Shown in pieces: positions 2-47,200 of a stretch of 64,000 bases of DNA. Each line of letters opens with the position of its first letter. The first letter of the stretch is position 1. The DNA is from Myxococcaceae bacterium JPH2 (GTDB lineage: Bacteria > Myxococcota > Myxococcia > Myxococcales > Myxococcaceae). The translations under genes and the position numbers were made by a program. The DNA lies in contig JAEMGR010000036.1 of assembly GCA_016458225.1 (NCBI GenBank), positions 62,001 through 126,000 of the forward strand. The letters are read 5' to 3'. The notes under the pieces were generated by a model. It saw only the letters and a list, made by a program, of their open reading frames with translations. It was not told the DNA's origin and searched no databases.

Positions 2-1927
2 GCGGGGCTCGCTTCCGTGGACCGCTTCCGCTCCGGCTATTACCAGTCACAGGACGGCAAGCGGCTGGTGCTGCTGGTGCGACCGCCTCAAGTCACCACC
101 GGCTATGCGTTCAACCACACGATGCTGGAGGAGGTGCGGCGGCAGGTGCAGGCGCTGCATCCCGAGCACTTCGACCCTTCGATGCGCGTGGGCTACGACG
201 GCGAGGTCGCGACCATGATGGAGGAGCAGGCCGCGCTCCAGTCGGACCTGCTGACGTCGGGCGTGGTGGTGCTCGCGGGCGTCACGGGCGTGCTGTGGCT
301 CTACTTCCGTCGCTGGCGGGCGCTCGCGGCCATCATCGGCTCGCTCATGGTGGGGTGCTCCGTCACCTTCGGGTTGGCGGACGTGCTCATTGGCCACCTC
401 AACGCGAACACCGCGTTCCTGGGCTCCATCGTGGTGGGCAACGGCATCAACGCCGCCATCATCTACCTGGGCCGCTACCTGGAAGAACGGCACGCGGCGG
501 TGCCCGTCCCCGAGGCCATTCGCATCGCCTGGGCGGGCACGGTGGCGCCCACCTTCGTGGCCTCCTTCGCGGCGGGGCTGGCGTACCTGTCGCTGGCGGT
601 GACGCGCTTTCGCGGCTTCAACCAGTTCGGCGTCATGGGCGGCATGGGCATGGCGCTGTGCTGGTTGTCCGCCTACCTGGTCCTCCCTCCGCTGTTGTAC
701 GTGCTCGAGTCGCCGCGGCCCATGGAGCTTGCCCACGTGGTGGGGGCTCGGCCGCTCACGTCCCGGCTCGCGCGCTGGGTGGTGTCCCGGCGCGGGCTCA
801 TCCAGGTCGTGTCGCTGGTGCTGCTCGCCACGAGCGTGGCGGCCGTCACGTCCTATCAAGGCCCGCTGGTGGAGGCGGACTTCAACAAGCTGCGCGCGCG
901 CGACAGCCAGAAGCACGGCTCCATCTACTGGGGCCATCGCGTGGACGAGGTGTTCCAGTCGTACCTCACGCCGGTGGTCATCGTGGGCGACAGCGCGGAG
1001 GATCTCCAGCGCGTGGTCGACCTGCTCAACGCACGCCAGCGCGCGCTGGGAGACCAGGCGATCCTCGGCGAGGTGCGGACCGCGCGCACGCTGGTGCCCA
1101 TGGACGCCGAAGCCAAGCTCCCGCTGATGCATGAGTTGCGCGCGTTGTTGCCGGACTCGCGGCTGTCCATGCTGCCTCCGGCGCTCCGACACGAGGCTCG
1201 GATGTACCGCCCTCCCGCGAATGCGCGCCCCCCGCGATGGGACGAGGTGCCGCTCACCCTCCGTGAGCCGCTCACCGAGCGCGACGGCACCGTGGGGCGC
1301 GTCGCGTTCGCCTACCCCAAGCGGGTGGGCTCCATCGACGCGCGCTACGGCTTGCAGCTCACCGACACCATCCGCGCCGCCATCCACGATGCCGGGGGCC
1401 GGGCGTTGTCCATGGGAAGGCCCCTGCTCATCGCGGACATCACCCATGCCATCCTGCGAGATGGCCCGCGCGCCACGCTGCTGGCGCTGGCCGCGGTGTC
1501 CGCGCTGGTGTTCGGGGTGACGCGCCACGCGCGGTTGGCGCTGACGGTGCTGGCCGGCCTGCTCCTGGGCGTGGCGTGGTTGGTGGGGTTGGCCGCGCTG
1601 CTGCGGCTGCGGCTCAACTTCCTCAACTTCGTGGTGCTGCCCATCACCTTTGGCATCGGGGTGGACTACGCGGCCAACCTCATCCTGCGCTACCGCGAGG
1701 AGGGACCCGGCTCGCTGTCGCGGGTCATCGAGGGGACGGGCGGAGCGGTGGCGCTGTGCTCGTCCACCACCATCATCGGCTACGCGTCCCTCCTGATGTC
1801 GCGCAACCAGGCGCTCGCGAACTTCGGCCTGCTGGCGGCGATGGGCGAGGTGGCGTGCCTGTCCGCGGCGCTGCTGGCGCTGCCCGCGCTCCTCCTGCCC
1901 AAGCAGGCGTCGACCCCGGAGCCGTAG
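2..1927 (+). CDS. RND/MMPL-family exporter, 5' end outside window
   Basis: The frame is already open at base 2 and runs to TAG at 1927, so only about 640 C-terminal residues are present. Hydrophobic segments occur in two clusters. One covers residues about 75-235 of the visible part and the other about 485-635, with a roughly 230-residue soluble loop between them, which is the second half-porter layout of RND proteins. The final cluster has the small-residue motif FGIGVDYAAN, typical of the MMPL/SSD transmembrane segment 4 or 10 with its proton-relay Asp. The protein probably exports a lipid or other hydrophobic molecule from the inner membrane. The substrate cannot be read from the sequence. 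The GTG at 17 is not accepted as the start because homologous sequence continues upstream. Confidence 0.85.
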   Translation, partial: AGLASVDRFRSGYYQSQDGKRLVLLVRPPQVTTGYAFNHTMLEEVRRQVQALHPEHFDPSMRVGYDGEVATMMEEQAALQSDLLTSGVVVLAGVTGVLWLYFRRWRALAAIIGSLMVGCSVTFGLADVLIGHLNANTAFLGSIVVGNGINAAIIYLGRYLEERHAAVPVPEAIRIAWAGTVAPTFVASFAAGLAYLSLAVTRFRGFNQFGVMGGMGMALCWLSAYLVLPPLLYVLESPRPMELAHVVGARPLTSRLARWVVSRRGLIQVVSLVLLATSVAAVTSYQGPLVEADFNKLRARDSQKHGSIYWGHRVDEVFQSYLTPVVIVGDSAEDLQRVVDLLNARQRALGDQAILGEVRTARTLVPMDAEAKLPLMHELRALLPDSRLSMLPPALRHEARMYRPPANARPPRWDEVPLTLREPLTERDGTVGRVAFAYPKRVGSIDARYGLQLTDTIRAAIHDAGGRALSMGRPLLIADITHAILRDGPRATLLALAAVSALVFGVTRHARLALTVLAGLLLGVAWLVGLAALLRLRLNFLNFVVLPITFGIGVDYAANLILRYREEGPGSLSRVIEGTGGAVALCSSTTIIGYASLLMSRNQALANFGLLAAMGEVACLSAALLALPALLLPKQASTPEP

Positions 1928-10094: not shown

Positions 10095-10131
10095 CGTGAT
10101 GCCTCCCTTCCCGCTCACTAGGAGTCCTCTC

Positions 10132-12684: not shown

Positions 12685-12701
12685 CGCCCGCCTGGCTGTT
12701 C

Positions 12702-12730
12702 CCGCCTCGGGCCCACCGCGCCCGAGGCGG
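12702..12730 (+). terminator. Stem-loop terminator after the esterase
   Basis: A perfect 11-bp GC-rich inverted repeat, CCGCCTCGGGC / GCCCGAGGCGG, with a 7-base loop starts 17 bases after the esterase stop. No T run follows, which is common in this genome style. Confidence 0.5.
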
Positions 12731-12849
12731 CCTGCCTGCCCAGCGTGCGCGGGGTGGAGCACGAGATAAATCCCGAGGGAAAAGAGCGCGGCTGGGTCGT
12801 GTTGCGCTCAGAAGGCCTGGACGCAATGCGCCATGGCCGCCCATCTCCT

Positions 12850-14163
12850 ATGACCCTCGCACACACCACGAATGCGCCCCTGCATGAGCGCCGGGGCATC
12901 TTGCGCCGCAGCCTTCGCCTCTCCACGCTGGAGGGGGTGCTGGCCGAGCTTGTGACGGCCTTCGCGGGAAGCGGTGTGCTCACTGCCTGGGCCCTGCACT
13001 TGCGCTGCAGCCCCATCCTCGTCGCGCTGCTCGCCGCGCTGCCGGCGCTGCTCCAGCTGGTGCACCTGCCGTCGGCGTGGCTGACGCAGGCGCGGGGCAG
13101 CCGTCCCGTGGCCATCCTCGCGGTGGGCGCGTCCCGCCTGGCCCTGCTCCCCCTGCTCGTGTTCCCGTTCCTGGGGCTGTCCCTGGAGGGCAAGCGGCTG
13201 CTCTTCCTGGGCATCACCGTGCTGTACGCGCTGCTGGGAATCATCGCGAACAACGCCTGGACCGCGTGGATGGGGGACCTGGTCCCCGCGCCCGTGCGGG
13301 GCCGCTACTTCGGGCAGCGCACCTCGCTGGGGATGTTGGCGGGCGGCATCGCCGGGCTGGCGGTGGGGCTGGCGCTCGACTCCGCTCGCAAGCATGGGCA
13401 GGAGCCGCAGGTGCTCGCGCTGCTCGCGCTCCTGGGCACCCTCGTCGGCGTGGCCTCGCTCGTGCTGATGGCGCGTCAGGCGCCGCCCACCGGCGTGTCG
13501 CGCCGAGCGGTGTGCGCGGTGTGCGCGGTGTCTCCGTTCCGGGATCGCCGGCTGCGTCCGCTGCTCACGTACCAGGTGGTGTGGGGCGCGGCGGTGGGGG
13601 TCTCCGCGAGCTTCGGCGTCGTCTACATGCTGCAGGACCTGCGCATGGGCTTCGGCCTCATCGCGGGCTACGGCTCGGCCGTGGCGCTGGTCCGCGTGCT
13701 GGCCATCCGTCACTGGGGCAAGGTCATCCAGCGCGTGGGCGCGCGGCCGGTGCTGGTCGTCTGCTCGTTCGGCCTCATCTTCCTGCCGCTGCTGTGGCTG
13801 GTGCCGCCCAGTGACTTCACGCTGTGGCTGCTGGGCGTCGACGTGCTGATGGCCGGCATCCTGTGGGGCGGCCACGGTCTCGCGTCGTTCGAGCTGCCGC
13901 TGTCGCTCGCACCCGCGAAGCGCCGTCCGTTCTACGTCGCGGCGTTCCACAAGGCGGGCGGTCTGGCGTTCGCCCTCGCGTCGCTCGCGGGGGGCTGGCT
14001 GGCGACGCAGGTGCCCTCGCGCCTGTTCATCCACGGCGAGGCGTTCCACGGCCTCCAGATCCTCTTCCTCCTGTCCGCGCTGGGGCGACTGTTCGCGGCC
14101 CCGCTGGCCCTCCGGGGTCGGCGCCGTCAGGAAGGCGCTGTGCCCGCCGCGTGCTTCGCGTGA
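12850..14163 (+). CDS. MFS transporter
   Basis: 437 residues from ATG 12850. An in-frame ATG at 12826 is equally possible and no ribosome site decides between them. Twelve hydrophobic segments are visible. The loop after segment 4 has PAPVRGRYFGQRTSLGM, the R-G-R-(Y/F)-F-G-x-R signature of one MFS_1 branch. The central linker (MARQAPPTGVSRRAVC...FRDRRLRPLL) separates the two six-helix halves. Substrate unknown. It is a stand-alone forward gene, and the next genes run in reverse. Confidence 0.82.
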   Translation: MTLAHTTNAPLHERRGILRRSLRLSTLEGVLAELVTAFAGSGVLTAWALHLRCSPILVALLAALPALLQLVHLPSAWLTQARGSRPVAILAVGASRLALLPLLVFPFLGLSLEGKRLLFLGITVLYALLGIIANNAWTAWMGDLVPAPVRGRYFGQRTSLGMLAGGIAGLAVGLALDSARKHGQEPQVLALLALLGTLVGVASLVLMARQAPPTGVSRRAVCAVCAVSPFRDRRLRPLLTYQVVWGAAVGVSASFGVVYMLQDLRMGFGLIAGYGSAVALVRVLAIRHWGKVIQRVGARPVLVVCSFGLIFLPLLWLVPPSDFTLWLLGVDVLMAGILWGGHGLASFELPLSLAPAKRRPFYVAAFHKAGGLAFALASLAGGWLATQVPSRLFIHGEAFHGLQILFLLSALGRLFAAPLALRGRRRQEGAVPAACFA

Positions 14164-35234: not shown

Positions 35235-36578
35235 ATGTCGGAAGTGTTGGACGATGGATTGCCGGAGTCCTCTCCGGACACTCCGTCCTCTCGTCTGCCG
35301 GGCTTCCATCGCCGCGGCGTGGACGAGCGATGGCGGGAGCTGGCGCGGCGGGGACATGTCTCACTGGAAGAGCTGCGCGTCTTGCGCGGGTGGGAGGCTT
35401 CTTCCTTCGATGTCGTGAACCAGATGATCGAAAACGCGGTGGGGGTGTTCTCCCTACCGCTGGGGTTGGGGCTGAACCTCACCGTCAACGGGCGCGACCA
35501 TGTGGTGCCCATGGCGGTGGAGGAGCCCTCGGTGGTCGCGGCGGTGTCGTTCGCGGCCAAGGTGGTGCGCCAGGCGGGTGGCTTCACCGCCGAGGCGGAT
35601 GACTCCACCATGATTGCCCAGGTGCAGCTCACCCGGTACGGCTCGGCCGAGGTGGCGCGCTCGCGGGTGCTGGCGGCGCGCGAGCCCTTGCTCGCCCTGG
35701 CCAACAGCTTCCATCCCTCGTTGCAGCGACGGGGCGGCGGCGCGCGCGACGTGCAGGTGCGCATCCTGCCCGCTCCCGAGGGGCCGCAGGGCGAGCCGCT
35801 CTTCATCGTGCACCTGCTGGTGGACACCCAGGAGGCCATGGGCGCCAACCTCATCAACACCATGGCCGAGGGCGTGGCGCCGCTCATCGAGCAGCTCACC
35901 GGCGGGCGCGTCTTCGTGCGCATCCTGTCGAACCTCGCGGATCAACGGCTGGCGCGCGCCTCGTGCCGGATTCCCTTGGAGGCGCTGGCGGACTTCGACC
36001 TGCCCGGCGAGGCCATCGCCGAGGGCATCCTCCAAGCGAGCCGCTTCGCCGAGGCAGACCCCTACCGCGCGGCCACGCACAACAAGGGCGTGATGAACGG
36101 CATCGACGCGGTGGCCATCGCCACGGGGCAGGACTGGCGGGCCATCGAGGCGGGCGCGCATGCGTATGCCTGCCGGATGGGGCGCTACGGGCCGCTGTCT
36201 CGCTGGACGCTGGAGCAAGGCCACCTGGTGGGGCGCATCGAGCTGCCGCTGGCGCTGGGCCTGGTGGGCGGTCCCATCCGCATCCACCCCGGCGCGCAGC
36301 TCGGGCTCAAGTTGCTGCGTGTGTCGTCGGTGCGCGAGCTGGCCATGGTGTTCGCGTCGGTGGGGCTGGCGCAGAACTTCGCGGCGGTGCGCGCGCTGGG
36401 CTCGGTGGGAATCCAGAAGGGCCACATGGCGCTGCACGCGCGCTGCGTCGCCGTCACGGCGGGCGCTCGAGGTCCGGACGTGGAGAAGGTGGCGCGGCTG
36501 CTCGTGGAGCGCGGCAGCGTGAAGGTGGACACCGCGCGCGAGATCCTCGCCTCGTTCCCGGAACTCGCCGCGCCATGA
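35235..36578 (+). CDS. mvaA: Hydroxymethylglutaryl-CoA reductase, class II-like
   Basis: 447 residues from ATG 35235, with GGGGG six bases upstream. The family motif MIENAVGVFSLPLGLGLN at about residues 67-84 carries the catalytic ENxxG Glu, and later FIVHLLVDTQEAMGANLINTM binds the cofactor/substrate region. THNKGVMNGIDAVAIATGQDWRAIEAG holds the catalytic Lys and Asp region of class II (bacterial) enzymes. Length and N-terminus match Pseudomonas MvaA rather than the eukaryotic class I. In myxobacteria the mevalonate route supplies isoprenoids, and its place at the head of an operon beside squalene and sterol genes suggests it feeds them. The stop overlaps the next ATG. Confidence 0.9.
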   Translation: MSEVLDDGLPESSPDTPSSRLPGFHRRGVDERWRELARRGHVSLEELRVLRGWEASSFDVVNQMIENAVGVFSLPLGLGLNLTVNGRDHVVPMAVEEPSVVAAVSFAAKVVRQAGGFTAEADDSTMIAQVQLTRYGSAEVARSRVLAAREPLLALANSFHPSLQRRGGGARDVQVRILPAPEGPQGEPLFIVHLLVDTQEAMGANLINTMAEGVAPLIEQLTGGRVFVRILSNLADQRLARASCRIPLEALADFDLPGEAIAEGILQASRFAEADPYRAATHNKGVMNGIDAVAIATGQDWRAIEAGAHAYACRMGRYGPLSRWTLEQGHLVGRIELPLALGLVGGPIRIHPGAQLGLKLLRVSSVRELAMVFASVGLAQNFAAVRALGSVGIQKGHMALHARCVAVTAGARGPDVEKVARLLVERGSVKVDTAREILASFPELAAP

Positions 36579-38827
36579 TGGAGCCGGCGGGAGACGCGCC
36601 GTCTGCATTCACCTGGCTGGCCGACGCCGTTCATCGGCACGGCCGCTGGGTGCTCGTGGGCAGCGGCGTGCTCCTCGCCCTGGCGGTCTGGGTGCTGGCT
36701 CTGGGGGGGCATCTCACCACCGGCACCATCGACGGCGTCGAGTCCGCGCGGGCCGAGGCGCTCGCTCGGGGCGCCGCCGCGGGCTCGAATGATCAGACGC
36801 TGGCGGTCATCTTCCACCGCGACGACTGGCGCGCGGACGCAGCGCCGTTCCAGGGCGCGGTGTCCCAGGTGCTCGCGCGCGTGGAGAAGCTGCCGGAGGT
36901 GGAGTCGGTGGTGTCTCCCGTGGGTGCGCCCGAGGCCTATCGCGCGCGCTTCGTGGCAGGCACCGGTCACGACGTGCTCGCGCTGGTGCGATTGAAGGGC
37001 GGTGAGCGCGAGGCCACCGCCGCGTTCCCCACGGTGAGCGCCGCGCTCCAGGACCCACGCCTGAGGACCACTATCACCGGCAAGGTGGCTTTCCTCGATG
37101 CGCTCAATGCGCTGCTGGCCCACGACCTCCTGCGCGCCGAACTCATCTCCTTCCCGCTGGCGCTGGTGGTGCTGCTCTGGGTCTTCCGCTCCGTCGTGGC
37201 CGCCGCGCTGCCGCTGGTGGTGGGCGGACTGGCGGTGCTCTGCGGCGTGGCGGGCGTGCTGCTCCTGTCGCGCGTCACGAACATGGCGCAGTACACGCTC
37301 AACGTCGTGTCGCTCATCGGCCTGGGCGTGGCCATCGACTACTCGCTGTTCATCGTCAGCCGCTTCCGCGCGGAGCTGGGCGCGGGGCGCTCGACGGAGC
37401 AGGCCCTGGCGCGCACGCTGGACACGGCGGGCCGAGCGGTCGCGTTCTCCGGACTGGCCGTCACGGTGGGGCTGGGCGGGCTCTTGTTCTTCCGAGGCTC
37501 GTACCTGAGCGCCATGGGGCTGGGCGGCGCGCTGGTGGTGGCCTTCGCGGTGTTGTTCGCGCTCACCGCGCTGCCCGCGCTGCTGTCGTGGCTGGGGCCT
37601 CGGGTGGACCTGGGCCGACTGCCCTTCGTGAACCGCGTGGGGCGGGGCGGAGGCTGGCACGCGCTGGCCACCTGGGTGATGCGTCATCCGTGGTGGGTGC
37701 TCCTGCCCACGCTCGTGCTGCTGCTGGCCATGGGGCTGCCGTTCCGGCGCTTGCAGCTGGCGGCCACGGACATCACCGCGCTGCCCGAGGACACGCCCGC
37801 GCGCCAGGGCGCGGCGACGCTGGCCCGGCTGTTTCCTCGCGAGGCCGCGACCCGCGTGCTGGTGGTGGTGGAGTTCCCGTCGGGGAACCCCTTCACGCCC
37901 GCGCGGGCCAGCGCGCTGTACGACGCGAGCCGACGCATCGCCGCGTTGCCAGGGGTGTTGGGCGTGGAGAGCGCGGTGGACCTCGCGCCGGGGATGGATC
38001 GCTCACGGCTGGAGCAGATGGCCGCCGCGCCGCCGGAGGCCCTGCCGCCAGCGCTGCGCGCCGCGCGCAACGCCTACTTGAGTGGCCACGCGGCGGTGAT
38101 GCAGGTGCTGACGTCCGCTGCGCCCACCAGCCCCGAGGCGCGGGCGTTGGTGCGCACGCTGCGCGAGGAGCGCACGGTGGGCGACGGGCACTTGCTGGTG
38201 GGAGGCCAGACGGCCATGGACGTGGACGCGACGGCCTTCGTGCGTCACCACACGCCCGCGGCCGTGGCCTTCGTGATGGGGATGACGTGCGTGGTCCTCT
38301 TCATCCTCCTGCGCTCGGTGGTGCTGCCCTTGAAGGCGCTCTTGATGAACCTGCTGTCGTTGTGCGGCTCGTTCGGCGCGCTGGTGTGGATATTCCAGGA
38401 GGGACACCTCCAGCACCTGCTGCGCTTCGAGCCCGGACCCATCGAGCCCTCGTTGCCCATCCTGTTGTTCTGCGCGCTGTTCGGCTTGTCGATGGACTAC
38501 GAGGTGTTGCTGCTCAGCCGCATCCGCGAGGAGTGGCTGCGCACGGGCGACAACACCCACGCGGTGGCCGAGGGCCTGGAGCGCACGGGTGGGCTCATCA
38601 CCAGCGCGGCGGCCATCATGGTCGCGGTGTTCGCGGCCTTCTCGCTGGCGACGGTGGTGGTGGTGAAGGCGATGGGCGTGGGCATGGCCATCGCGGTGGC
38701 GCTGGATGCCACGCTGGTGCGGGTGCTCATCGTCCCGTCGATGATGCGGCTGATGGGCGACTTCAACTGGTGGGGGCCCGGCCATTCAGGGCGGCCGGGG
38801 GCGCGGGACTCGGGGACCAGGGGGTGA
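36575..38827 (+). CDS. MMPL/RND-family lipid exporter
   Basis: 750 residues from ATG 36575, overlapping the reductase stop as ATGA. Twelve transmembrane segments occur in two sets of six (one helix then five, twice), each after a periplasmic domain. The two proton-relay helices read GLGVAIDYSLFIVSRFRAEL and FGLSMDYEVLLLSRIREEW, the GxxxDY(S/E) signature of MMPL proteins. Such pumps move mycolates, hopanoids (HpnN) and, in Methylococcus, sterols (BstA). Co-translation with HMG-CoA reductase and closeness to the sterol genes make it a candidate sterol or sterol-glycoside exporter. That assignment is inference. Confidence 0.88.
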   Translation: MMEPAGDAPSAFTWLADAVHRHGRWVLVGSGVLLALAVWVLALGGHLTTGTIDGVESARAEALARGAAAGSNDQTLAVIFHRDDWRADAAPFQGAVSQVLARVEKLPEVESVVSPVGAPEAYRARFVAGTGHDVLALVRLKGGEREATAAFPTVSAALQDPRLRTTITGKVAFLDALNALLAHDLLRAELISFPLALVVLLWVFRSVVAAALPLVVGGLAVLCGVAGVLLLSRVTNMAQYTLNVVSLIGLGVAIDYSLFIVSRFRAELGAGRSTEQALARTLDTAGRAVAFSGLAVTVGLGGLLFFRGSYLSAMGLGGALVVAFAVLFALTALPALLSWLGPRVDLGRLPFVNRVGRGGGWHALATWVMRHPWWVLLPTLVLLLAMGLPFRRLQLAATDITALPEDTPARQGAATLARLFPREAATRVLVVVEFPSGNPFTPARASALYDASRRIAALPGVLGVESAVDLAPGMDRSRLEQMAAAPPEALPPALRAARNAYLSGHAAVMQVLTSAAPTSPEARALVRTLREERTVGDGHLLVGGQTAMDVDATAFVRHHTPAAVAFVMGMTCVVLFILLRSVVLPLKALLMNLLSLCGSFGALVWIFQEGHLQHLLRFEPGPIEPSLPILLFCALFGLSMDYEVLLLSRIREEWLRTGDNTHAVAEGLERTGGLITSAAAIMVAVFAAFSLATVVVVKAMGVGMAIAVALDATLVRVLIVPSMMRLMGDFNWWGPGHSGRPGARDSGTRG

Positions 38828-38828
38828 G

Positions 38829-40031
38829 GTGGTGAGAGCGCGCGACATCGTGTGGGGGCTGGCGGGAGCGGCGGCGCTGGGCGTGCTGCTGCACGGGCAT
38901 CGGGGATTGATGGCGGGCCTGCGCAGGCGCCCGGCCCTCTCCGCGAAGCCGTTCGAGCCGCCGTCGGTGACCATCATCCGCCCCATCCGAGGCCTGGATG
39001 TGGAGGCGCCCGAGAACGTGCGGGCGCTGCTCGACCTGGACTATCCCGGTGAGTGGGAGGTGCTCTTCGTCTTCGACAGCGAGGCCGACCCGGCGTTCGC
39101 GCCGACGCGCGAGGCGCTGCGCTCCCATCCCACGCGCGCGCGGCGCGTGGAAGTCATCGTCGCGGGCGAGCCACCCGAAGGACTGACGGGCAAGCTCAAC
39201 GCGATGCAGGTGGGCATGGCTCGCGCACGAGGCACGCTCGTGGCGTTCAGCGACTCGGACACCCGTCCGGCTCCCAACGTGCTCACCGCGCTGGTGGGCG
39301 CGCTGCTGGAGGACGAGCGCACGGGCGCCACGTTCGCGCCCGTGTACGCGGCATCCGAGGAGCCGCTGGCGGGAGACGTGGGCTACGGGCTGTTGGTGAA
39401 CGCGTGGTACGGCGCGTCCGTGGCGTGTGCCTCGGGACCGGACGGCGCGCTGCCCTTCATCATGGGCCAGATGATGGTGTTCCGCCGCGAGGCGCTGGAT
39501 GCCATTGGCGGCGTGGGCAGCGCCGCGGGCCAGTTCGTGGACGACATGTACCTGGGGCGCCGCCTGCATGAGGCGGGTTGGAAGAACCGCGTCGTGCATG
39601 CGCCGCTGCGCATCGTCACGGGGCGACTGGGGCTGCGCGCGTTCCTGCGCATCTTCCGTCGGTGGATCCTCTTCTCGCAGAGCGGCCTGCCCTGGTCCTT
39701 CGCCCGGCCCAACTGGGCGCGGGGGGTCTCGGTGTGGCTCGCATGGGGGAGCCTGGCCGTGGCGATGTCGCGGCGCGCCTGGAGCATGGCGGCGCTGGCG
39801 ACGCTGCCCATCGGCTTCTCCGTGTGGAGCCAGGTGCGGTTGCAGCGCGCGTGTCATGGGCCGCCGGTGGCGCCTCGCCACCTGTGGGTGCCCGCGGTGC
39901 TGCCGCTCCTGGGCGCGGGCGTGGCGCTGTCCGCGCGGCTGTCGCGCGAGGTGGACTGGCGCGGACGCGGTTATCGGTTGGACGCGAACGCGCGGCTGGG
40001 CACCACGCGCCCCGCCTTGGCCAGCCAATAG
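38829..40031 (+). CDS. Membrane GT2/GT21 glycosyltransferase, ceramide-glucosyltransferase/HpnI-like
   Basis: 400 residues from GTG 38829 (adjacent GTG 38832 is an alternative), one base after the exporter stop. An N-terminal membrane anchor is followed by VTIIRPIRGLDVEAPENVRALL, LTGKLNAM, the metal site SDSDTRP, a later FVDDMYLGRRL and RIFRRWILFSQ. This is the D1-D2-D3-(Q/R)xxRW layout of GT21, followed by two C-terminal helices. Relatives glycosylate ceramide, or a hopanoid in HpnI. Here the acceptor could be a sterol or sphingolipid. The last 61 bases are shared with the end of the convergent squalene epoxidase gene. Confidence 0.85.
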   Translation: MVRARDIVWGLAGAAALGVLLHGHRGLMAGLRRRPALSAKPFEPPSVTIIRPIRGLDVEAPENVRALLDLDYPGEWEVLFVFDSEADPAFAPTREALRSHPTRARRVEVIVAGEPPEGLTGKLNAMQVGMARARGTLVAFSDSDTRPAPNVLTALVGALLEDERTGATFAPVYAASEEPLAGDVGYGLLVNAWYGASVACASGPDGALPFIMGQMMVFRREALDAIGGVGSAAGQFVDDMYLGRRLHEAGWKNRVVHAPLRIVTGRLGLRAFLRIFRRWILFSQSGLPWSFARPNWARGVSVWLAWGSLAVAMSRRAWSMAALATLPIGFSVWSQVRLQRACHGPPVAPRHLWVPAVLPLLGAGVALSARLSREVDWRGRGYRLDANARLGTTRPALASQ

Positions 40032-41380
40032 ACAGGACGTTGGACGCAGCGATGCCACCACGCTTCCATCTGCTCCACCGCGCTCTCCATGGCGGTCTTC
40101 AACGGCGGACCGGCCGAGCGCAACAGCGGCGCGGCCGAGCGCAGCGGCACGGTCCGCTGCCGGGGCGAGGCCAGGCTCGTGAGCGCATGGCCCACCACGC
40201 AGAGGTACTCGCGGGCCATGACATGCATGCGGGGCTCCTCGGCGGCGAGCAGCGACATGGAGGTTCGTGCGCCGCTGGGGCTGTGCTCCCAATAGCGCAC
40301 GAGCCCGCGACGCAGGGCGCGCATGCCCTCATCCTGGCCGGCGAAGGCGTCATAGAGCGCGGACGCGAGCGCCACGCGGGTGCGCTGCGCGGGGCGTCGC
40401 GCGCGGGCGTACTCCTCCAGCGCGAGCGGGATGTCCGTCCGATGCCGCCGCAGGGCGTCCTGGAGCGCGCGGGCATCGCGGAAGCACGAGGCCATGCCGC
40501 TGGCGGTGAGGGGATGACAGCATGCGGCGGCGTCTCCGACGAGCACGGCGCTGCCCACCCTCACGGTGCCGGAGAGCCGAGCATCATTCGAGGCCAGCCG
40601 GGGCGCGGGGGGGGTCTCCAAGGCACGCAGGACCTCGGCGCGCAGCTCCAAGGGGAGGGCGCCGAGCAGCTCGGGCCGAGCCTGGAGGGTGCTCGCGTTG
40701 CTGCCCAGGGGCAGGTCCACCATCACGCGCGCCACGCCGGGCTGGATGGCGTAGGCCAGCGCGTGCATCGGGCCCCCTACGAAGATGTGCCCGTAGCCAG
40801 GGTGGGGCAGGCTGTCGCTGTCCACGGTGACGCCGAGCATGGTGGAGATGCGGTGCAGGCGCTCGGGGATGCCGAGCATGCGCCGCACGGGCGAGGCTCG
40901 GCCGTCCGCGGCCACCAGGAGCCGGGCGCGGACCGTGTGCTCGGTGCCGTCTTGGATGAAGCGCACGTGGACGCCCTTCGCGTCATTGCGCTCCACCGCC
41001 GTGACGCGCGCCTTGGGAATCAATGTGACGCCGGGGCGCGAGGCCACCGACTCCAGCAGCGGCACGGTGAGCGAGGCATGCTCGAGCGACACGCCCGTGA
41101 CGCCGCGTCCGTAGGGCAGCAGGACGGTATGCCGCGGTGCGTGGAAGCGCACGGCGAAGCCTCGCACGGGCTGGGACGTCCAGCGATCCACCACCGCGTC
41201 GAAGTGCAACGCGCGCAGATCCGCCACGCCGGAGGGGTGCAGCAGCTCTCCCGCAAGTTGTTTGTGGCGGTCCACGCCCGCGTCCACCAACATGACGGAC
41301 ATCCCCAGCCCCGCCATTGCCGCAGCCGCCGCGCAGCCCGCGGGTCCGCCACCGGCAATCACCGCATCGACGTCCCGCAT
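39971..41380 (-). CDS. sqmo: Squalene epoxidase (squalene monooxygenase)
   Basis: 469 residues from ATG 41380, with GGTGGGGG upstream. FAD-binding AVIAGGGPAGCAAA at residues 6-19; GELLHPSG at 44-51, the counterpart of GEFLQPGG in eukaryotic SQLE; the ADG motif at about 157; and LVGDAAACCHPLTASGM at about 278-294, matching the SQLE GDAxNMRHPLTGGGM segment including the HPLT core. The C-terminal helices (SALYDAFAGQDEGMRALRRG, then LSLLAAEEPR) also follow SQLE. It converts squalene to 2,3-oxidosqualene using O2 and a flavin reductant. It is divergent from squalene synthase and the cyclase. Confidence 0.88.
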   Translation of the reverse strand: MRDVDAVIAGGGPAGCAAAAAMAGLGMSVMLVDAGVDRHKQLAGELLHPSGVADLRALHFDAVVDRWTSQPVRGFAVRFHAPRHTVLLPYGRGVTGVSLEHASLTVPLLESVASRPGVTLIPKARVTAVERNDAKGVHVRFIQDGTEHTVRARLLVAADGRASPVRRMLGIPERLHRISTMLGVTVDSDSLPHPGYGHIFVGGPMHALAYAIQPGVARVMVDLPLGSNASTLQARPELLGALPLELRAEVLRALETPPAPRLASNDARLSGTVRVGSAVLVGDAAACCHPLTASGMASCFRDARALQDALRRHRTDIPLALEEYARARRPAQRTRVALASALYDAFAGQDEGMRALRRGLVRYWEHSPSGARTSMSLLAAEEPRMHVMAREYLCVVGHALTSLASPRQRTVPLRSAAPLLRSAGPPLKTAMESAVEQMEAWWHRCVQRPVYWLAKAGRVVPSRAFASNR

Positions 41381-41451
41381 GAAGCCCCCACCTTTTTGTC
41401 CACACAACACTTAGTCACTGACGCGGAGCGCCGCACGGCGTGGAGGAAGCC
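41381..41451. promoter_or_regulatory. Divergent promoter region of sterol genes
   Basis: Only 71 bases separate the epoxidase and squalene-synthase starts. The middle (41393-41418) is AT-richer and holds TTGT-CCAC-ACAA and GTCA-C-TGAC inverted arms. No standard -35/-10 pair is clear. Both ribosome sites (GGTGGGGG reverse, GGAGGA at 41442-41447 forward) are strong. Co-regulation of the three sterol genes from here is likely. Confidence 0.5.
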
Positions 41452-42501
41452 ATGACTGTTCCCGGAGAGTCGTTTTGCCGCACGCAACTGCCCCGGGTGT
41501 CCCGCACCTTCGCGCTCAACATCCCCTTGCTCCCCGAGCCGCTCGACCTGGCCGTGACGGTGGCCTACTTGCTGTGCCGCATCGCGGACACGCTGGAGGA
41601 CGAGGCCCCTGGGGCGCTGCAGGGTGAGCTGCTCACGGCGTTGGCGGAGCTGGTGACCCTGCGGCCGGGCTGGGAAGGCCGTGCCCGCTCCTTCGTCCAG
41701 CGAGCGGGGCCCTCCTTGAGGGGCGAGACGCCGAGCGCGGAGGCGGAGCTGGTCGCCGGCACGCCCACGGTGCTGGAGGCCCTGGCCTCGCTTCCCACGT
41801 GGGTCCAACCGCATATCGCGCGGTGCGTGCGCACCATGACCGACGGCATGGTGCAGATGCAGCGCGAGCACGGCAGCGCGGGGCGCATCCGCGGGCTGCC
41901 AGACCTCGAGGCGACGTTCAGGTACTGCTACTACGTGGCGGGCGTGGTGGGGGAGATGTTGACGGAGCTCTTCATCGACTACTCGCCCCGCGTCGCGCCG
42001 CACGCGTCCACGCTCATCCCGCGCGCTCCCGCGTTCGGTCGCGCGCTGCAGCTCACCAACATCCTCAAGGACGTGCGCGAGGACCTGGACCGGGGCTACT
42101 GCTGGTTGCCGCGGGACCGGATGGCCGCGCACGGCCTGGAGCCCACCACGCTCACGCAGCCTGGCAACCGCGCGCGGGCGGTGGCGATGATGGAGGAGCT
42201 GGTGGCGGTGGCGCGGCGCGAGCTGGACGCCGCGATGGAGTACTCGCTGGCGCTGCCGGTGGAGGAGCCGGGCCTGCGGCTGTTCTGCCTCTATCCGCTC
42301 TTCTTCGCGGCGCTGACGCTCAACGCGCTGGATGGCAACCCCGCGGTGTTCGACCCGGCGCCGGTGAAGATCAGCCGGGACGCGGTGCGCGCGGTGATGC
42401 TGCTCACGCAGGAGCGCGTGGGCTCGGACGGCGCGCTGCGGGCGCTGTACGGGGACTGCTCGCGGACGTCGCATGGGGAGGGGGAGGAGGCAGTGCGGTG
42501 A
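41452..42501 (+). CDS. sqs: Squalene synthase (farnesyl-diphosphate farnesyltransferase)
   Basis: 349 residues from ATG 41452, with GGAGGA 5 bases upstream. The first aspartate-rich motif DTLED is at residues 46-50 and the second, DVREDLDRGYCWLP, begins at 207. The central YCYYVAGVVGEMLTELF is the YCxYVAGxVG signature of squalene synthases rather than phytoene synthases. It condenses two farnesyl diphosphates to presqualene diphosphate and then, with NADPH, squalene. A single gene is used here instead of the HpnCDE route. The stop overlaps the cyclase start (GTGA). Confidence 0.9.
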   Translation: MTVPGESFCRTQLPRVSRTFALNIPLLPEPLDLAVTVAYLLCRIADTLEDEAPGALQGELLTALAELVTLRPGWEGRARSFVQRAGPSLRGETPSAEAELVAGTPTVLEALASLPTWVQPHIARCVRTMTDGMVQMQREHGSAGRIRGLPDLEATFRYCYYVAGVVGEMLTELFIDYSPRVAPHASTLIPRAPAFGRALQLTNILKDVREDLDRGYCWLPRDRMAAHGLEPTTLTQPGNRARAVAMMEELVAVARRELDAAMEYSLALPVEEPGLRLFCLYPLFFAALTLNALDGNPAVFDPAPVKISRDAVRAVMLLTQERVGSDGALRALYGDCSRTSHGEGEEAVR

Positions 42502-44417
42502 CGCGGCGGGCGCGCGACGTGCTCGCCCGGACCCAGGAGGCGGATGGCTCCTGGAAGGGCGACTACGGCGGCCCGCTGTTCCTGGGGCCGGTGTACGTGG
42601 CGGCGCTGTACCTGATGGGCCGCGCGCCGGAGCCGGACATCCGTGAGGGGATGCTCACGCATGGGCGGATCCACCAGAACGCGGATGGCGGCTGGGGCCT
42701 GGATGTGGAGTCGCCCAGCCTCGTCTTCACCACGGCGCTCAACTACGTGGCGGCGCGGCTGTTGGGTGTGCCCGCGGAGGACCCGGCGCTCGTGCGCGCG
42801 CGGGCGTGGCTGCATGCCCAAGGGGGGCCGCTGGGCAGCGGGTCGTGGGGAAAGTTCATCCTCGCGCTGCTGGGGCTCTACGACTACGAGGGCCTGGCGC
42901 CCGTCCCGCCCGAGCTGTGGCTCCTGCCGCGCGTGCTCCCGTTCCATCCCTCGCGGCTGTGGTGCCACTGCCGCATGGTGTACCTGCCCATGGGGTGGCT
43001 CTACGGGCATCGGGCGCGGGCGCCGGAGACGCCGCTGCTCGCCGAGCTGCGCCGCGAGCTGTACCCCGAGCCCTACGAGACCGTGGATTGGAAGGCGGCG
43101 CGAGAGCGGGTGGCGCCTTCGGACGCGTACACGCCTCGCACCTTCTGGCTGCGCGCGGTGAACCGCGCGCTGGGCGTCTATGAGCGCGTGCACTCGAAGC
43201 GGCTGCGCGCGCGGGCGTTGGAGGAGTCGCTCGCGCAGATGCGCGGCGAGGACGAGGCCACGCACTACATCTGCATCGGGCCCATCAACAAGGTGCTCCA
43301 CGCGGCGGTGTGGCACCTGGCGCGGCCCGGGGGACCGGAGGTCCAAGCCCACCTGGAGCGCCTGCCGGACTACCTCCAGCGCTCCGAGGATGGCGTGAAG
43401 GTCAACGGCTACAACTCCTCGCAGCTCTGGGACACCGCCTTCGCAGTGCAGGGGCTGGTGGCGTCAGGGCAAGCAGCGTCCGCGCGCGAGACGCTGGCGC
43501 GCGCGGCGGACTTCCTGGAGTCGCAGCAAGTCCTCGAGGACTCGCCTCAGGCGGCGCGCTTCCACCGCCACCCCAGTCGAGGCGGCTGGCCCTTCAGCAC
43601 GCGCGCGCACGGCTGGCCCATCAGCGACTGCACGGCGGAGGGCGTGAAGGCGTGCCTCCTGCTGGAGCCGCTGGGGCTCAACCGCGTGTCGCGCGAGCGG
43701 CTGGGGCACGCGGTGGAGTTCATCCTCTCGCTGCAGAACCGGGACGGCGGCTGGGCCACGTATGAGCCACAGCGCGGGCCGCGTTGGTTGGAGCGCCTCA
43801 ATCCCTCGGACGTGTTCGCCGGCATCATGGTGGACACCAGCTATGTCGAGTGCACCTCGGCCTGTGTGCAGGCGTTGGTGGCGTGGCGACGGGTGACGCC
43901 CGGCGCTCCGGTGGAGCGGGCCATCGCGCGAGGCGTGGACTTCTTGCGCCGGAGCCAGCGTGCGGATGGGAGCTGGGAGGGCTCGTGGGGCGTGTGCTTC
44001 AGCTACGGCACGTGGTTCGGAGTCACGGGGCTGGTGGCCGCGGGAGTTCCCCAGGAGGATCCCGCGCTGCGGCGCGCCTCGGCCTTCTTGCGTGCGCGTC
44101 AGCGGACCGACGGCGCATGGAGCGAGACCATCCAAAGCTGCCGTGAGCGGCGCTGGGTGGAGGGGGCCGCGGGCCACGCGGTGACGACGTCGTGGGCGCT
44201 GCTGTCGCTCGTGGCCACCGGGGACGGCGCCTCCGAGTCCGTGCGGCGCGGCGTGGCGTGGCTGCGAGGCTGGCAGGGCGCCGACGGTCGCTGGCCGCGC
44301 GAGCCGCTCGCGGGCGTGTTCAACCGCACGTGTGCCATCCACTACGACGCGTATCTGCGCATCTTCCCGTTGTGGGCGCTGGCGCTCGCGGACCCTCAGG
44401 GGGGCGCGGCTTCCTGA
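42498..44417 (+). CDS. osc: Oxidosqualene cyclase, cycloartenol-synthase type
   Basis: 639 residues from GTG 42498, overlapping the squalene-synthase stop. It has the catalytic DCTAE motif (Asp377 in WPISDCTAEG) of oxidosqualene cyclases, not the DxDD of squalene-hopene cyclases. Landmarks match eukaryotic enzymes in order: CHCRMVYLPMGWLYG, IGPINKVL, NGYNSSQLWDTAF, VDTSYVECTSA, DGSWEGSWGVCFSYGTWFG, GVFNRTCAI, and several QW repeats. Product-determining sites read Tyr305, His371 and Ile375, equivalent to Tyr410, His477 and Ile481 of Arabidopsis cycloartenol synthase (lanosterol synthases have Thr, Cys/Gln, Val). It is about 100 residues shorter at the N-terminus than plant enzymes. The predicted product is cycloartenol. 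Membrane-associated. Confidence 0.93.
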   Translation: MTRRARDVLARTQEADGSWKGDYGGPLFLGPVYVAALYLMGRAPEPDIREGMLTHGRIHQNADGGWGLDVESPSLVFTTALNYVAARLLGVPAEDPALVRARAWLHAQGGPLGSGSWGKFILALLGLYDYEGLAPVPPELWLLPRVLPFHPSRLWCHCRMVYLPMGWLYGHRARAPETPLLAELRRELYPEPYETVDWKAARERVAPSDAYTPRTFWLRAVNRALGVYERVHSKRLRARALEESLAQMRGEDEATHYICIGPINKVLHAAVWHLARPGGPEVQAHLERLPDYLQRSEDGVKVNGYNSSQLWDTAFAVQGLVASGQAASARETLARAADFLESQQVLEDSPQAARFHRHPSRGGWPFSTRAHGWPISDCTAEGVKACLLLEPLGLNRVSRERLGHAVEFILSLQNRDGGWATYEPQRGPRWLERLNPSDVFAGIMVDTSYVECTSACVQALVAWRRVTPGAPVERAIARGVDFLRRSQRADGSWEGSWGVCFSYGTWFGVTGLVAAGVPQEDPALRRASAFLRARQRTDGAWSETIQSCRERRWVEGAAGHAVTTSWALLSLVATGDGASESVRRGVAWLRGWQGADGRWPREPLAGVFNRTCAIHYDAYLRIFPLWALALADPQGGAAS

Positions 44418-47200
44418 GTCGCGGACGCGGCGCTGTCCACCGCGCGCGCCGCATCGGGCCGACGCGGCAGGCAGACCGTGAAGCGCGACCCCTCGCCGGG
44501 GCGACTCGAGACGTGGATGGTGCCGCCGTGGGCCTGCACGATGCTCTGGGTGATGAAGAGCCCCAGTCCCAGGCCGCCATAGTGCCGAGGCGAGACGGCG
44601 CGCTCGAAGCGGCTGAAGATGCGGGTCGCGTCCGCCTCCGAGATGCCGATGCCCTGGTCCTCGACGGTGAGCAAGGCGAGGTCACCGGGGGCCGAATGCA
44701 CGGTCACCTGCACGGGCTTGCCGCGCGCGTACTTGAAGGCGTTCGACAGGAGGTTGGCCAGGACCTGCTCCAATCTCAGCCGGTCATACAGGCCCGTCAC
44801 GGGCGCGTCGGCGTGGAGCCGCAGCTCGCAGCCGGCGCGGTGGGCCTCCACCTGGAACTGCTCCACCACCTCGGCCGCGAGTTCGGAGAGGTCCAGCAGC
44901 TCCAGGTCGAAGTGGAGCTTGCCCGCGGTGATGCGGGACACGTCGAGCAGCCCGTCAATCAGCTTGTCGAGCCGGTGCATCTGCTTCACCGCCACGTCCA
45001 CCCGGCGCGTCAGCTCCAGGTCCTGCCGCGCGCGGCCCATGCGCTGAATCGTCTGGAGCTGGAGGTGCAGCGTGGTGACGGGCGTGCGCAGCTCGTGCGA
45101 GGCGATGGAGAGGAACTCATCGCGCGAGTCGATGGCGACGCGGGCGCGTTGATACAGCCGCGCGTTGTCGATGGCCATCGACGTGCGGTGGGCGAGCTGC
45201 TCCGCGAGCTGGAGGTCCGCGGGCCCATAGGTACGCCCCGCGCCCGAGGCGAAGGTGATGGCGCCGAGAATGCGGCCCCGTGCGCGCAGCGGCACGGCGA
45301 TGGCGGTGCGGGTGCCCAGCTCACGGAGGAGGTCAGCGTGGTGGGCATCCGCCGCGACGGCCGTCAGCCGCTCATCGGTGATGGCGGGGAAGAGTTCCGA
45401 GACGCCCGTGCGGAGCACGCGGGCCGCGGGAGGATGGGAGTCTCGCCGCGCGGGATAGCGGTCCTGGAGCTCCTGGAGCAGCGCCTGCTTCGATGGGTCC
45501 GCGTGCGCGAGCGCGATGCGCCTCGGCGTGCCGGACTCCTCCAACACATCCACCACGCACCAGTCCGCCATCTGCGGGATGCCCAGGTGCGCGACGCGCG
45601 ACAGCGTCGTCTCATAGTCGAGCGACTCCGCCAGCGTCTTGCTCGCCTCATCGAGGAGTCGCTGCGACTGCTCGGCGCGGCGCAGCTCCTCGTACAGCCT
45701 TCCGTTGTCCACGGCGTAGGCGGAGCGCCGCGCCAGCTCCTCGGCCAGCAGCAGCTCCGCGCGCGAGTACGGATACGCGGGCGCGTTCCGCAGCAAGGTG
45801 AGCGTCCCCAGCACGCGACCGCGGGCGAGCAAGGGCGCCATCATCACCGAGAACGGAGCGAGGGACTCCCGCTGGGCCGCGGGCACGGCGGCGCGCGGCC
45901 CGAGTCGGCGCAGGAGCCGGCCCAGGTGTCGGATGCGTCGGGCCTTGCCGGTCCGCAGCACCTGGAGCAGCGCGAGCGGTGGAGCGAGTTCCGGAGTGGG
46001 GCCGCTCAGGGAACGGCACAAGTCGAAGTCCACCGCGCCGCGCGCCTGCTCGCACGCGGCGAGCCGCAATCCGCCCTCGTGTTCCAGGTGGAGGATGCAG
46101 GCATCCGCGAGGAGTGGCACCACGCGATGCGCGACCGCCGCGAGCGCCGCGGAGACATCGAGCGAGGACACGAGCGCGGAACTCACCTCGGACAGCAGAC
46201 GCTGGCGTTGCTCGGAGGCGCTCGCCTCCACGAGCAGGCCGCGCTGATGCTCGGCCCACTTCTGCTCGGTCAGGTCGCGGCTCACTTCGGCGAAGCCGCG
46301 CAGGCGGCCGTCAGGGGAGCGCAGTGAGGTGAGCACGACGTTCGCCCAGAAGCGCGAGCCGTCCTTGCGAACGCGCCAGCCCTCGATCTCCACGCGGCCC
46401 GCCTCGGATGCGCCCAGGAGCTGCAGCTGCGGCCAGCCGCGCTCCACGCTCTCCTTCGTCTGGAAGTCGGTGAAGTGCTTGGTCAGCGCCTCCGAGGCTC
46501 CGTAGCCGGTGATGCGCTCGGCGCCCGCGTTCCAGCTCACCACCCGCCCATCCGGATCCAACATCACGAGCGCGTAGTCCTTCACGCCATCGACGAGCAG
46601 GCGGAAGCGCTCCTCGCTCTGTCGCAGGGAGTCCTCGGCTCGGTGCCGCTCGGTGGACTCCAGCGCCATGGACACCACGTGGCCGATGGAGCGGGCCAGG
46701 GCCTGCTCCTCCAAGGTCCAGAGGCGGTGCGTTCCTCGGTGCTCGTGACAGACGACGCCGCCCAGGCGGCCCTGGACCCAGACCGGGACGTCCATCATCG
46801 ACGAGATGCCGAGCGGCTGGAGGTAGCTGTCGGTGAACTCCCGCGTGCGCGGATCCGCCTGGGCGTCCGAGGTCGCGATGAACGGGGTCCGCGCGAGCGC
46901 CTCGAAGTAGTGGGGGTATTCGCTCGCCAGCAAGCGGATGCCGGGCTCGGATGCGCCCTGTCCGCGCGCGTACAGGAGGCGGCAGAGGAGCGCGCGGGAG
47001 TCCTGCTCGAAGGTCCAGTAGCTCACCCGGTCGACGCTCAGCAGCTCCGCGTCGCTCTGGAGAATCTGGCGGAGGCTGGCCTCGAAGTCCGAGGTCCGCG
47101 CGGCGGCCAGCTCGAGCAGGACGGACTGCTCCAAGAGGACGGCCTGGCGGTGGAGCATTCGCTCCCGCTCGTCCGGGAGGGCCTGGCTTTCCTCGTCCAT
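44396..47200 (-). CDS. Hybrid-sensor histidine kinase: GAF-PAS-GAF-GAF-HisKA-HATPase
   Basis: 934 residues from ATG 47200 and no transmembrane segment, so cytoplasmic. In order: a GAF domain (residues about 25-190), PAS/PAC (about 200-320, with GRVVSWNAGAERITGYGASE and the closing GFAEVSRDLTEQK), two more GAF domains (about 340-505 and 520-680), HisKA with SHELRTPVTTL (phospho-acceptor His about 701), and an ATPase domain with NLLSNAFKYA (N box), DQGIGI, and GGLGLGL. It has no receiver domain and no response regulator is adjacent, so it is an orphan kinase. Its 3' end overlaps the convergent cyclase gene by 22 bases. The signal is unknown. Confidence 0.92.
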   Translation of the reverse strand: MDEESQALPDERERMLHRQAVLLEQSVLLELAAARTSDFEASLRQILQSDAELLSVDRVSYWTFEQDSRALLCRLLYARGQGASEPGIRLLASEYPHYFEALARTPFIATSDAQADPRTREFTDSYLQPLGISSMMDVPVWVQGRLGGVVCHEHRGTHRLWTLEEQALARSIGHVVSMALESTERHRAEDSLRQSEERFRLLVDGVKDYALVMLDPDGRVVSWNAGAERITGYGASEALTKHFTDFQTKESVERGWPQLQLLGASEAGRVEIEGWRVRKDGSRFWANVVLTSLRSPDGRLRGFAEVSRDLTEQKWAEHQRGLLVEASASEQRQRLLSEVSSALVSSLDVSAALAAVAHRVVPLLADACILHLEHEGGLRLAACEQARGAVDFDLCRSLSGPTPELAPPLALLQVLRTGKARRIRHLGRLLRRLGPRAAVPAAQRESLAPFSVMMAPLLARGRVLGTLTLLRNAPAYPYSRAELLLAEELARRSAYAVDNGRLYEELRRAEQSQRLLDEASKTLAESLDYETTLSRVAHLGIPQMADWCVVDVLEESGTPRRIALAHADPSKQALLQELQDRYPARRDSHPPAARVLRTGVSELFPAITDERLTAVAADAHHADLLRELGTRTAIAVPLRARGRILGAITFASGAGRTYGPADLQLAEQLAHRTSMAIDNARLYQRARVAIDSRDEFLSIASHELRTPVTTLHLQLQTIQRMGRARQDLELTRRVDVAVKQMHRLDKLIDGLLDVSRITAGKLHFDLELLDLSELAAEVVEQFQVEAHRAGCELRLHADAPVTGLYDRLRLEQVLANLLSNAFKYARGKPVQVTVHSAPGDLALLTVEDQGIGISEADATRIFSRFERAVSPRHYGGLGLGLFITQSIVQAHGGTIHVSSRPGEGSRFTVCLPRRPDAARAVDSAASATQEAAPP

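Follow-up and report, generated by a model that had tools for sequence, protein, structure and literature searches.

What are genes for a membrane transporter and a glycosyltransferase doing inside a bacterial sterol locus? The question is posed by positions 35235 to 44417 of a 64,000-nt stretch of contig C36 (hereafter the window) from the 9.0-Mb genome of Myxococcaceae bacterium JPH2, where six genes lie as two forward-strand groups flanking a single reverse-strand gene (Table 1). Encoded are a second 3-hydroxy-3-methylglutaryl-coenzyme A (HMG-CoA) reductase, a transporter of the MMPL family, a membrane glycosyltransferase, a squalene epoxidase, a squalene synthase and a 2,3-oxidosqualene cyclase. 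The predicted cyclase product, cycloartenol, is a plant-type sterol, and the host is a soil-dwelling predatory bacterium. An earlier note on this DNA had proposed that the transporter exports and the glycosyltransferase glycosylates the sterol. Within the Myxococcaceae a sterol-linked module of these two genes is genetically well supported, and as far as substrates can be inferred from sequence, cycloartenol, and its glycoside also, is probably exported.

Co-occurrence with the sterol cyclase

Each locus protein was searched against 96 genomes of the family, with E≤1e-30 required for the cyclase, E≤1e-50 for the MMPL transporter, E≤1e-35 for a strong glycosyltransferase match and at least 78% identity for a reductase of the locus type. 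The sterol cyclase is found in 47 genomes and missing from 49. Of the cyclase-positive genomes, 35 encode the MMPL transporter, 28 the glycosyltransferase (strong matches) and 14 the locus-type reductase, while none of the three occurs in the 49 cyclase-negative genomes; some HMG-CoA reductase is present in 94/96. The earlier note had asked whether these genes are equally common in relatives lacking epoxidase and cyclase (sqmo and osc), which inside the family they are not (0/49), whereas outside it the link is looser. The reductase, which it had counted as a linked part, is indeed confined to cyclase-positive genomes, but is the least tied of the genes (14/96). Restricted to the 83 genomes with completeness of 90% or more and contamination of 5% or less, the counts are 41 for the cyclase and 34 for the transporter. 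The epoxidase is present in 48 genomes, the 47 with cyclase and G086 (94% complete, 230 contigs), the sole family genome with an epoxidase and no sterol cyclase match.

The distribution within genera is instructive. Of the 27 Myxococcus genomes (g19), an identical set of five holds cyclase, epoxidase, MMPL transporter, glycosyltransferase and second reductase; in Corallococcus (g5) the first four are found in 16/16 genomes (the glycosyltransferase of G020 being a fragment at the end of a contig) and the second reductase in seven. In 33 genomes the cyclase shares 57% identity or more with that of JPH2; all 33 have the transporter and 26 the glycosyltransferase. As the sterol cyclase is in each of these 33 genomes, JPH2 included, the sole match at E≤1e-15 to PF13243, the triterpene cyclase family, no hopanoid is expected as a competing substrate, and a hopanoid reading of the module is not favoured. 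Six sterol-cyclase-negative genomes with another PF13243 match (G009, G044, G079, G091, G092, G094) have neither the MMPL transporter nor a strong glycosyltransferase match (G079 has a weak relative of 29% identity), which argues that the module tracks the sterol cyclase and not triterpene cyclases generally. The locus genes are under purifying selection, with ratios of non-synonymous to synonymous substitution rates (dN/dS) of 0.04-0.15 between the window and Citreicoccus inhibens, 0.17-0.38 between the window and Myxococcus eversor and 0.14-0.27 within Corallococcus.

Conserved arrangements around the cyclase

MMPL transporter and cyclase genes lie at most 12 kb apart on one contig in 26 of the 35 genomes with the transporter and on separate contigs in the remaining nine, in three of which (G018, G023, G025) a contig end cuts the glycosyltransferase gene; in G011 and G088 the two are unlinked or contig-separated. 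A distance of at most 12 kb separates epoxidase and cyclase in 37/47 genomes by a tally of one row per genome, or 38 with the second row of G049. Two arrangements recur. In the first, the MMPL-glycosyltransferase pair faces the epoxidase, as in JPH2; in the second, the MMPL gene stands behind the cyclase on the same strand, the matches being 16-36 bp apart, in seven genomes (G031-G033, G035-G038) of genera g6 and g7, which we tentatively equate with Cystobacter and Stigmatella and which lack a strong glycosyltransferase match. In Corallococcus terminator (L029) the synthase gene is relocated and the module genes are still together. On a contig of another phylum, the Verrucomicrobiota (L089), an MMPL gene with a product of 53% identity again stands behind a cyclase, with no epoxidase match on that stretch. 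The occurrence of two arrangements in the family and one in another phylum argues for a functional tie between the transporter and the cyclase product, and we consider it fairly likely that the MMPL protein handles this product. The comparison of synteny suggested by the earlier note bears this locus out: the gene order is kept in Citreicoccus, Myxococcus and Corallococcus, so that the locus is not a chance assembly.

Does the pump then carry the free sterol? The MMPL protein could move free cycloartenol (or squalene products), with the glycosyltransferase as an independent or accessory enzyme, as the seven g6/g7 genomes with a transporter and no strong glycosyltransferase match would suggest, together with the free cycloartenol reported for Cystobacter and Stigmatella in PMC4919349. 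Also in its favour, the next-ranking structures matched by the transporter include carriers of sterols (NPC1/NCR1) and of hopanoids (HpnN). However, the glycosyltransferase gene follows the MMPL stop codon after 1 bp and overlaps the epoxidase gene, and no strong match to it falls in a cyclase-negative genome of the family, which makes this explanation improbable.

As observations in their own right, G058 contains two further incomplete copies of the module (L159:8296-11172 and L160:8028-11091) with epoxidase and synthase matches retained, reductase and glycosyltransferase as fragments and no MMPL or cyclase match there, and pieces of a second epoxidase and cyclase within the locus at L033:5725-8159 resemble remnants of a tandem duplication.

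Gene layout in the window

Profile matches confirm the six genes at the place, in the families and in the orientations that the earlier note had given, and only the starts of the MMPL and cyclase genes had to be moved (to those in Table 1), as their mechanical open reading frames (954 and 872 aa) begin too early. The reductase stop and MMPL start overlap in a common ATGA. The glycosyltransferase and epoxidase genes are convergent, their 3' ends overlapping by 61 bp; the squalene synthase gene is divergent from the epoxidase gene and overlaps the cyclase gene in a common GTGA. A scan for promoters and terminators gave no signal above that of shuffled sequences.

Table 1. Features of the sterol locus and two further genes of the window
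Feature	Position	Strand	Evidence
Second HMG-CoA reductase (class II; mevalonate supply)	35235..36578	+	PF00368 356 bits; TIGR00532 389 bits, cut-off 260
MMPL transporter, MmpL3-like; candidate sterol/steryl glycoside exporter	36575..38827	+	PF03176 262 bits
Membrane glycosyltransferase, GT21/HpnI-like; candidate sterol glycosyltransferase	38829..40031	+	PF13506 Glyco_transf_21
Squalene monooxygenase (epoxidase)	39971..41380	-	PF08491 (SE) 86 bits; phmmer 6c6n 5.2e-22
Squalene synthase, SQS_PSY family	41440..42501 (ATG at 41452)	+	PF00494 183 bits; TIGR01559 91 bits, below cut-off 287
2,3-Oxidosqualene cyclase, predicted cycloartenol synthase	42498..44417	+	TIGR03463 889 bits, cut-off 851
Histidine kinase	44396..47200		
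Further MMPL-family gene at the left edge of the window, perhaps truncated by the edge	17..1927	+	PF03176 96 bits; weak similarity to BstA

Of the named loci recovered, that of Citreicoccus inhibens is the closest, with a cyclase of 94% identity and an identical gene order; the JPH2 genome is assigned to the genus of this organism, whose coordinates agree with those of the genome labelled as congeneric. A histidine kinase gene downstream of the cyclase is also found in C. inhibens, but the loci of Myxococcus and Corallococcus, several of them short, gave no match to it, so it is not counted in the module.

The biosynthetic enzymes

The claim of a sterol locus based on an epoxidase and a DCTAE cyclase holds. 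The cyclase exceeds the curated cut-off of its 2,3-oxidosqualene cyclase model TIGR03463, matches lanosterol synthase 1w6k with phmmer at 6.4e-181 and shows DCTAE in the alignment, and the epoxidase exceeds the Pfam cut-off of PF08491. Human-numbered positions were counted from the DCTAE aspartate, taken as D455 of the human enzyme. By alignment to 1w6k, the cyclase carries the equivalents of Y381, H449 and I453, all three residues of the cycloartenol type, the combination given as the cycloartenol rule in PMC4919349. The locus is, as read from these sequence features, a sterol biosynthesis locus of the cycloartenol type, and the cyclase product is predicted to be cycloartenol. Cycloartenol is also the product predicted for Myxococcaceae cyclases in PMC12004948, according to which later sterol-modification enzymes are absent in the family save for a C-24 reductase of Cystobacter.

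A second copy of the reductase in the JPH2 genome, on contig C7, is 75% identical to that of the locus and adjoins genes for an FMN-dependent dehydrogenase-family protein, GHMP kinases and diphosphomevalonate decarboxylase. As the C7 copy sits in this mevalonate-type gene group, the locus reductase is regarded as an extra copy.

In all three cyclase-positive genomes of g6 (G031-G033) a single frame of about 1200-1290 aa, directly preceding cyclase and MMPL genes, covers the epoxidase, a middle part and the squalene synthase. In L146 (6057-9650, +) it holds epoxidase residues 42-423, a weak cyclase-C match at 679-753 and synthase at 863-1157; in L157 it spans 10008-13778 (-). If translated as one, the frame would be a natural epoxidase-synthase fusion. 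A stop codon falls inside the cyclase match in G035, G037 and G082, inside the epoxidase match in G035 and G057 and inside the MMPL match in G057; the cyclase frame of G037 runs for 636 aa to its stop, which is full length.

The transporter

The closest solved relative of the MMPL protein is MmpL3 (phmmer 7nvh, 4.3e-79). Its predicted structure, with a mean predicted local distance difference test (pLDDT) of 86, matches MmpL3 6ajf with Z 51.1 and a root mean square deviation of 3.1 over 695 residues (VIA). In a Foldseek search the MmpL proteins are followed by NPC1-type sterol transporters (NPC1/NCR1), Dispatched, HpnN and Patched; among the 50 matches shown of the structure search that yielded 6ajf-type matches HpnN does not appear. 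D255-Y256 and D641-Y642, presumably the counterparts of the MmpL3 proton relay, are invariant in 15/15 aligned sequences.

Scores against curated models are lower: 320 bits against the NCBI MmpL3 equivalog (cut-off 1400), and 67 and 44 bits against the HpnN models TIGR03480 (cut-off 752) and NF052374 (cut-off 1100). Identity with BstA, the sterol transporter of Methylococcus, was considered and rejected, as the best blastp piece covers 60 aa at E 2e-4. MMPL frames of the locus type score 640-1263 with an MMPL profile and at most 50 with a BstA profile, and the window has no match to the partners BstB and BstC better than E 0.047, five methanotroph control loci having matched strongly. By sequence and model, the transporter is MmpL3-like, neither BstA nor HpnN. 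In the MMPL tree the proteins of Myxococcaceae sterol loci form one clade (29 rows, 98/100), beyond which cyclase-linked (L089, G154, G189) and unlinked rows are intermixed.

Elsewhere, BstA-like RND proteins are encoded within about 4 kb of a cyclase on contigs of Polyangiaceae, Methylothermaceae and Verrucomicrobiales (L041, L060, L061, L074), and some RND/MMPL frame (E≤1e-8) occurs in 22 of 80 named cyclase loci, many of them short.

The glycosyltransferase

The glycosyltransferase scores 89.6 bits with PF13506, above the gathering score of 21.7, and 118 bits with TIGR03472 (HpnI), below its cut-off of 310. The nearest solved relative is ceramide glucosyltransferase 26qs (phmmer 1.1e-15). 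D142-S-D144, V237-D-D239 and R278-W279, which we read as the DxD, acidic base and RW motifs, are invariant in 15/15 aligned sequences. The model (pLDDT 90.7) has one long N-terminal and three long C-terminal helices, and most proteins returned by a fold search are synthases of hyaluronan and cellulose (Z up to 24), which represent the membrane GT-A fold; the 50 matches shown do not include ceramide glucosyltransferase. The protein is thus classed, on sequence, as a GT21/HpnI-like membrane enzyme with intact motifs, the nearest curated and solved relatives of which, HpnI (bacteriohopanetetrol) and ceramide glucosyltransferase, use lipid alcohols.

A weaker relative of about 30% identity is widespread, also in cyclase-negative genomes; counting it, any match at E≤1e-20 is found in 65/96. 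In JPH2 this relative scores 249 bits to HpnI and adjoins phosphoesterase and ABC-permease genes, and in the tree it lies far from the locus enzyme. By neighbours and tree position it is a different gene, and such matches were rejected as the locus gene. The glycosyltransferase tree is poorly resolved in many of its branches and does not place G151 and G103, two genomes without a sterol cyclase, with certainty. A role in carotenoid glycosylation is, on gene content, not favoured because the gene is absent in 22 of the 27 g19 genomes, those without cyclase. In Myxococcus, the weaker HpnI-like gene and another HMG-CoA reductase gene are some 7-8 kb apart in G055, G057, G058, G060, G069, G071 and G072 (for example L153:5163-15356 and L154:5852-15495).

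A scheme for synthesis, glycosylation and export

In the proposed scheme, the second HMG-CoA reductase would raise mevalonate flux, squalene synthase would provide squalene, and epoxidase and cyclase would convert it via oxidosqualene to cycloartenol. Up to cycloartenol, the scheme derives from well-known enzyme families and conserved residues. On the cytoplasmic side of the inner membrane, the glycosyltransferase would then transfer a sugar from a nucleotide sugar onto the sterol's 3-beta hydroxyl. Proton-driven through its two Asp-Tyr pairs, the MmpL3-like transporter would lift the steryl glycoside from the inner toward the outer membrane; glycosylation and export are both suggested by gene linkage and family. 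Where a genus has the transporter but no glycosyltransferase, free cycloartenol would be the cargo of this pump. That the locus is one sterol module and the whole scheme correct, glycosylation included, has in our estimate an even chance.

What weighs against a dedicated sterol module

Several observations pull in the other direction. The Fisher tests of co-occurrence (3e-16 for the transporter, 5e-12 for the glycosyltransferase) ignore relatedness, and the pattern within Myxococcus is more telling than these values. The other 14 cyclase-positive genomes of the family, with a more distant cyclase, include only two with the MMPL transporter (G011, G088) and two with the glycosyltransferase (G047, G087), in each case on contigs other than that of the cyclase. 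Furthermore, family assignment does not give the substrate of either protein.

Beyond the family the link loosens. Among 195 genomes of the phylum, the 96 included (E≤1e-40 for MMPL transporter and glycosyltransferase, E≤1e-100 for the sterol cyclase), the transporter is found in 47, the cyclase in 56 and the glycosyltransferase in 30. Ten have the transporter without the sterol cyclase, with proteins of 52-58% identity in G122, G151, G152, G153 and G155 and more distant relatives (38-40%) in G107, G183, G184, G185 and G186. The glycosyltransferase occurs without the cyclase in G151 and G103. G151 (98% complete) encodes transporter and glycosyltransferase in tandem and has no PF13243 match, so that the pair can exist without sterols. 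Neither was a PF13243 match found in G122, G153, G103, G107, G185 and G186; G155 has a partial one (8e-25), and G152, G183 and G184 have only weak ones. An ancestral or other substrate of the pair is possible, and the sterol link of the module may be a later specialisation, in agreement with the MMPL tree, where one Myxococcaceae clade stands beside mixed linked and unlinked relatives. The link that the earlier note drew between the sterol, the exporter and the glycosyltransferase is therefore upheld as a genetic tie in the family (35/47 and 28/47 versus 0/49) but not as an exclusive sterol role, against which 10/195 genomes and G151 speak.

These genomes also bear on a different substrate, in that transporter and glycosyltransferase might make and export another glycolipid, for example a glycosylated ceramide or a different membrane lipid, and be co-regulated with the sterol genes as both shape the same membrane, with no action on the sterol. 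The ceramide glucosyltransferase as nearest solved relative, the G151 pair without a triterpene cyclase match and the ten genomes with MMPL relatives and no sterol cyclase fit this explanation; within the family, in contrast, neither gene occurs without the sterol cyclase (0/49), and the transporter stays with the cyclase in genera without the glycosyltransferase. We regard it as unlikely, albeit the strongest competitor of the sterol module.

Chemistry adds a further counterweight. G017 is tentatively taken here as Corallococcus coralloides, G037 as Stigmatella aurantiaca and G033 as a Cystobacter. The locus-tag order in PMC4919349 fits the first two. In C. coralloides squalene but no sterol was detected, matching an earlier result of Bode 2003, even though the cyclase key residues are conserved, and the authors suggested lack of expression (PMC4919349). 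Cystobacter fuscus, grown in identical medium and likewise acetylated, yielded cycloartenol, and Stigmatella is listed there as a producer from an earlier study; the methods describe acetylation of the C. coralloides extracts and no hydrolysis step (PMC4919349).

The pathway might therefore be silent or vestigial in this branch, with the linkage nothing but inherited synteny. The two studies without sterol in Corallococcus (as given in PMC4919349) and the two extra incomplete module copies in G058 would be consistent with this. On the other hand, 16/16 Corallococcus genomes keep cyclase, epoxidase, transporter and glycosyltransferase (the last in G020 as a piece), the HGWPISDCTAE motif is intact in every Corallococcus cyclase examined, and the dN/dS of 0.14-0.27 within the genus argues against a dead pathway, which leaves this explanation very unlikely.

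For an active sterol module, G017 has the glycosyltransferase and G037 and G033 have no strong match, a contrast of few groups which suggests that glycosylation may hide the sterol. As a hypothesis only, glycosylation could explain the undetected sterol of C. coralloides, the alternative being lack of expression. A precedent exists in Calothrix, the sterols of which were first seen only after acid hydrolysis (PMC10202945). Conversely, high-temperature gas chromatography-mass spectrometry of acetates might in principle have revealed a glycoside, and the conjugated sterols of Enhygromyxa salina, a more distant myxobacterium, are as polar as free sterols, and thus unlike a glycoside (PMC10202945).

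Relation to known systems

A cycloartenol locus of Myxococcaceae was reportedly described for Stigmatella aurantiaca and Cystobacter fuscus (Bode 2003; Wei 2016). There, too, the epoxidase lies near a cycloartenol-type cyclase, as indicated by adjacent locus tags in PMC4919349; the g6/g7 loci differ in lacking a strong glycosyltransferase match, and MMPL transporter and glycosyltransferase go unmentioned in the accessible parts of PMC4919349 and PMC12004948. The terms 'glycosyl', 'transporter', 'RND' and 'MMPL' are absent from the main text of PMC12004948, and 'glycos' from PMC4919349 and PMC10942540. The BstA-BstB-BstC system of Methylococcus likewise has an RND/MMPL-superfamily membrane protein encoded beside a bacterial sterol cyclase (PMC10942540), but the locus transporter is no BstA orthologue and, as stated, the window lacks BstB and BstC matches. 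In hopanoid biology, HpnI glycosylates bacteriohopanetetrol and HpnN carries hopanoids to the outer membrane (PMC12583986); there, too, a polycyclic triterpenoid is the substrate of a glycosyltransferase in the membrane and of an RND transporter. Although the locus proteins score far below the curated cut-offs and the genome has no second triterpene cyclase match (E≤1e-15), the sterol module would mirror the hopanoid logic via other branches of the same superfamilies. MmpL3, the trehalose monomycolate exporter, has the closest solved structure and both Asp-Tyr pairs, so that the nearest solved relative of the transporter exports a glycolipid, but the locus protein is only about 30% identical to it and far below the equivalog cut-off. 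Mycolate synthesis is not known from myxobacteria. The known sterol glucosyltransferases of plants and fungi belong to GT1 and the cholesterol glucosyltransferase of Helicobacter to GT4; the reaction is that proposed here, and the locus enzyme is of another family, GT21/GT2-like.

In the literature searched (titles and abstract openings, with few subscription papers covered) no description of this module was found. The locus is a variant of known bacterial sterol loci, new in composition, and the earlier statement that such a sterol-export module is undescribed holds for this composition only, since BstA, of the same superfamily, is already described with BstB and BstC (PMC10942540). Tentatively, and with more doubt than confidence, the locus may represent the first dedicated make-and-export system for steryl glycosides of de novo bacterial sterols, composed of a GT21 enzyme and an MmpL3-like exporter, which would hide the sterol from searches for free sterols and make Corallococcus a cryptic sterol producer.

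With respect to significance, the locus supplies a candidate enzyme and a candidate exporter for a bacterial sterol conjugate, and the puzzle of C. coralloides, with intact sterol genes and no sterol detected, becomes testable. If the scheme is true, polycyclic triterpenoids would be served by yet another branch of RND proteins in addition to HpnN and BstA, and the existence of steryl glycosides in bacteria would matter for lipid biomarkers and for the tuning of the outer membrane in predatory bacteria.

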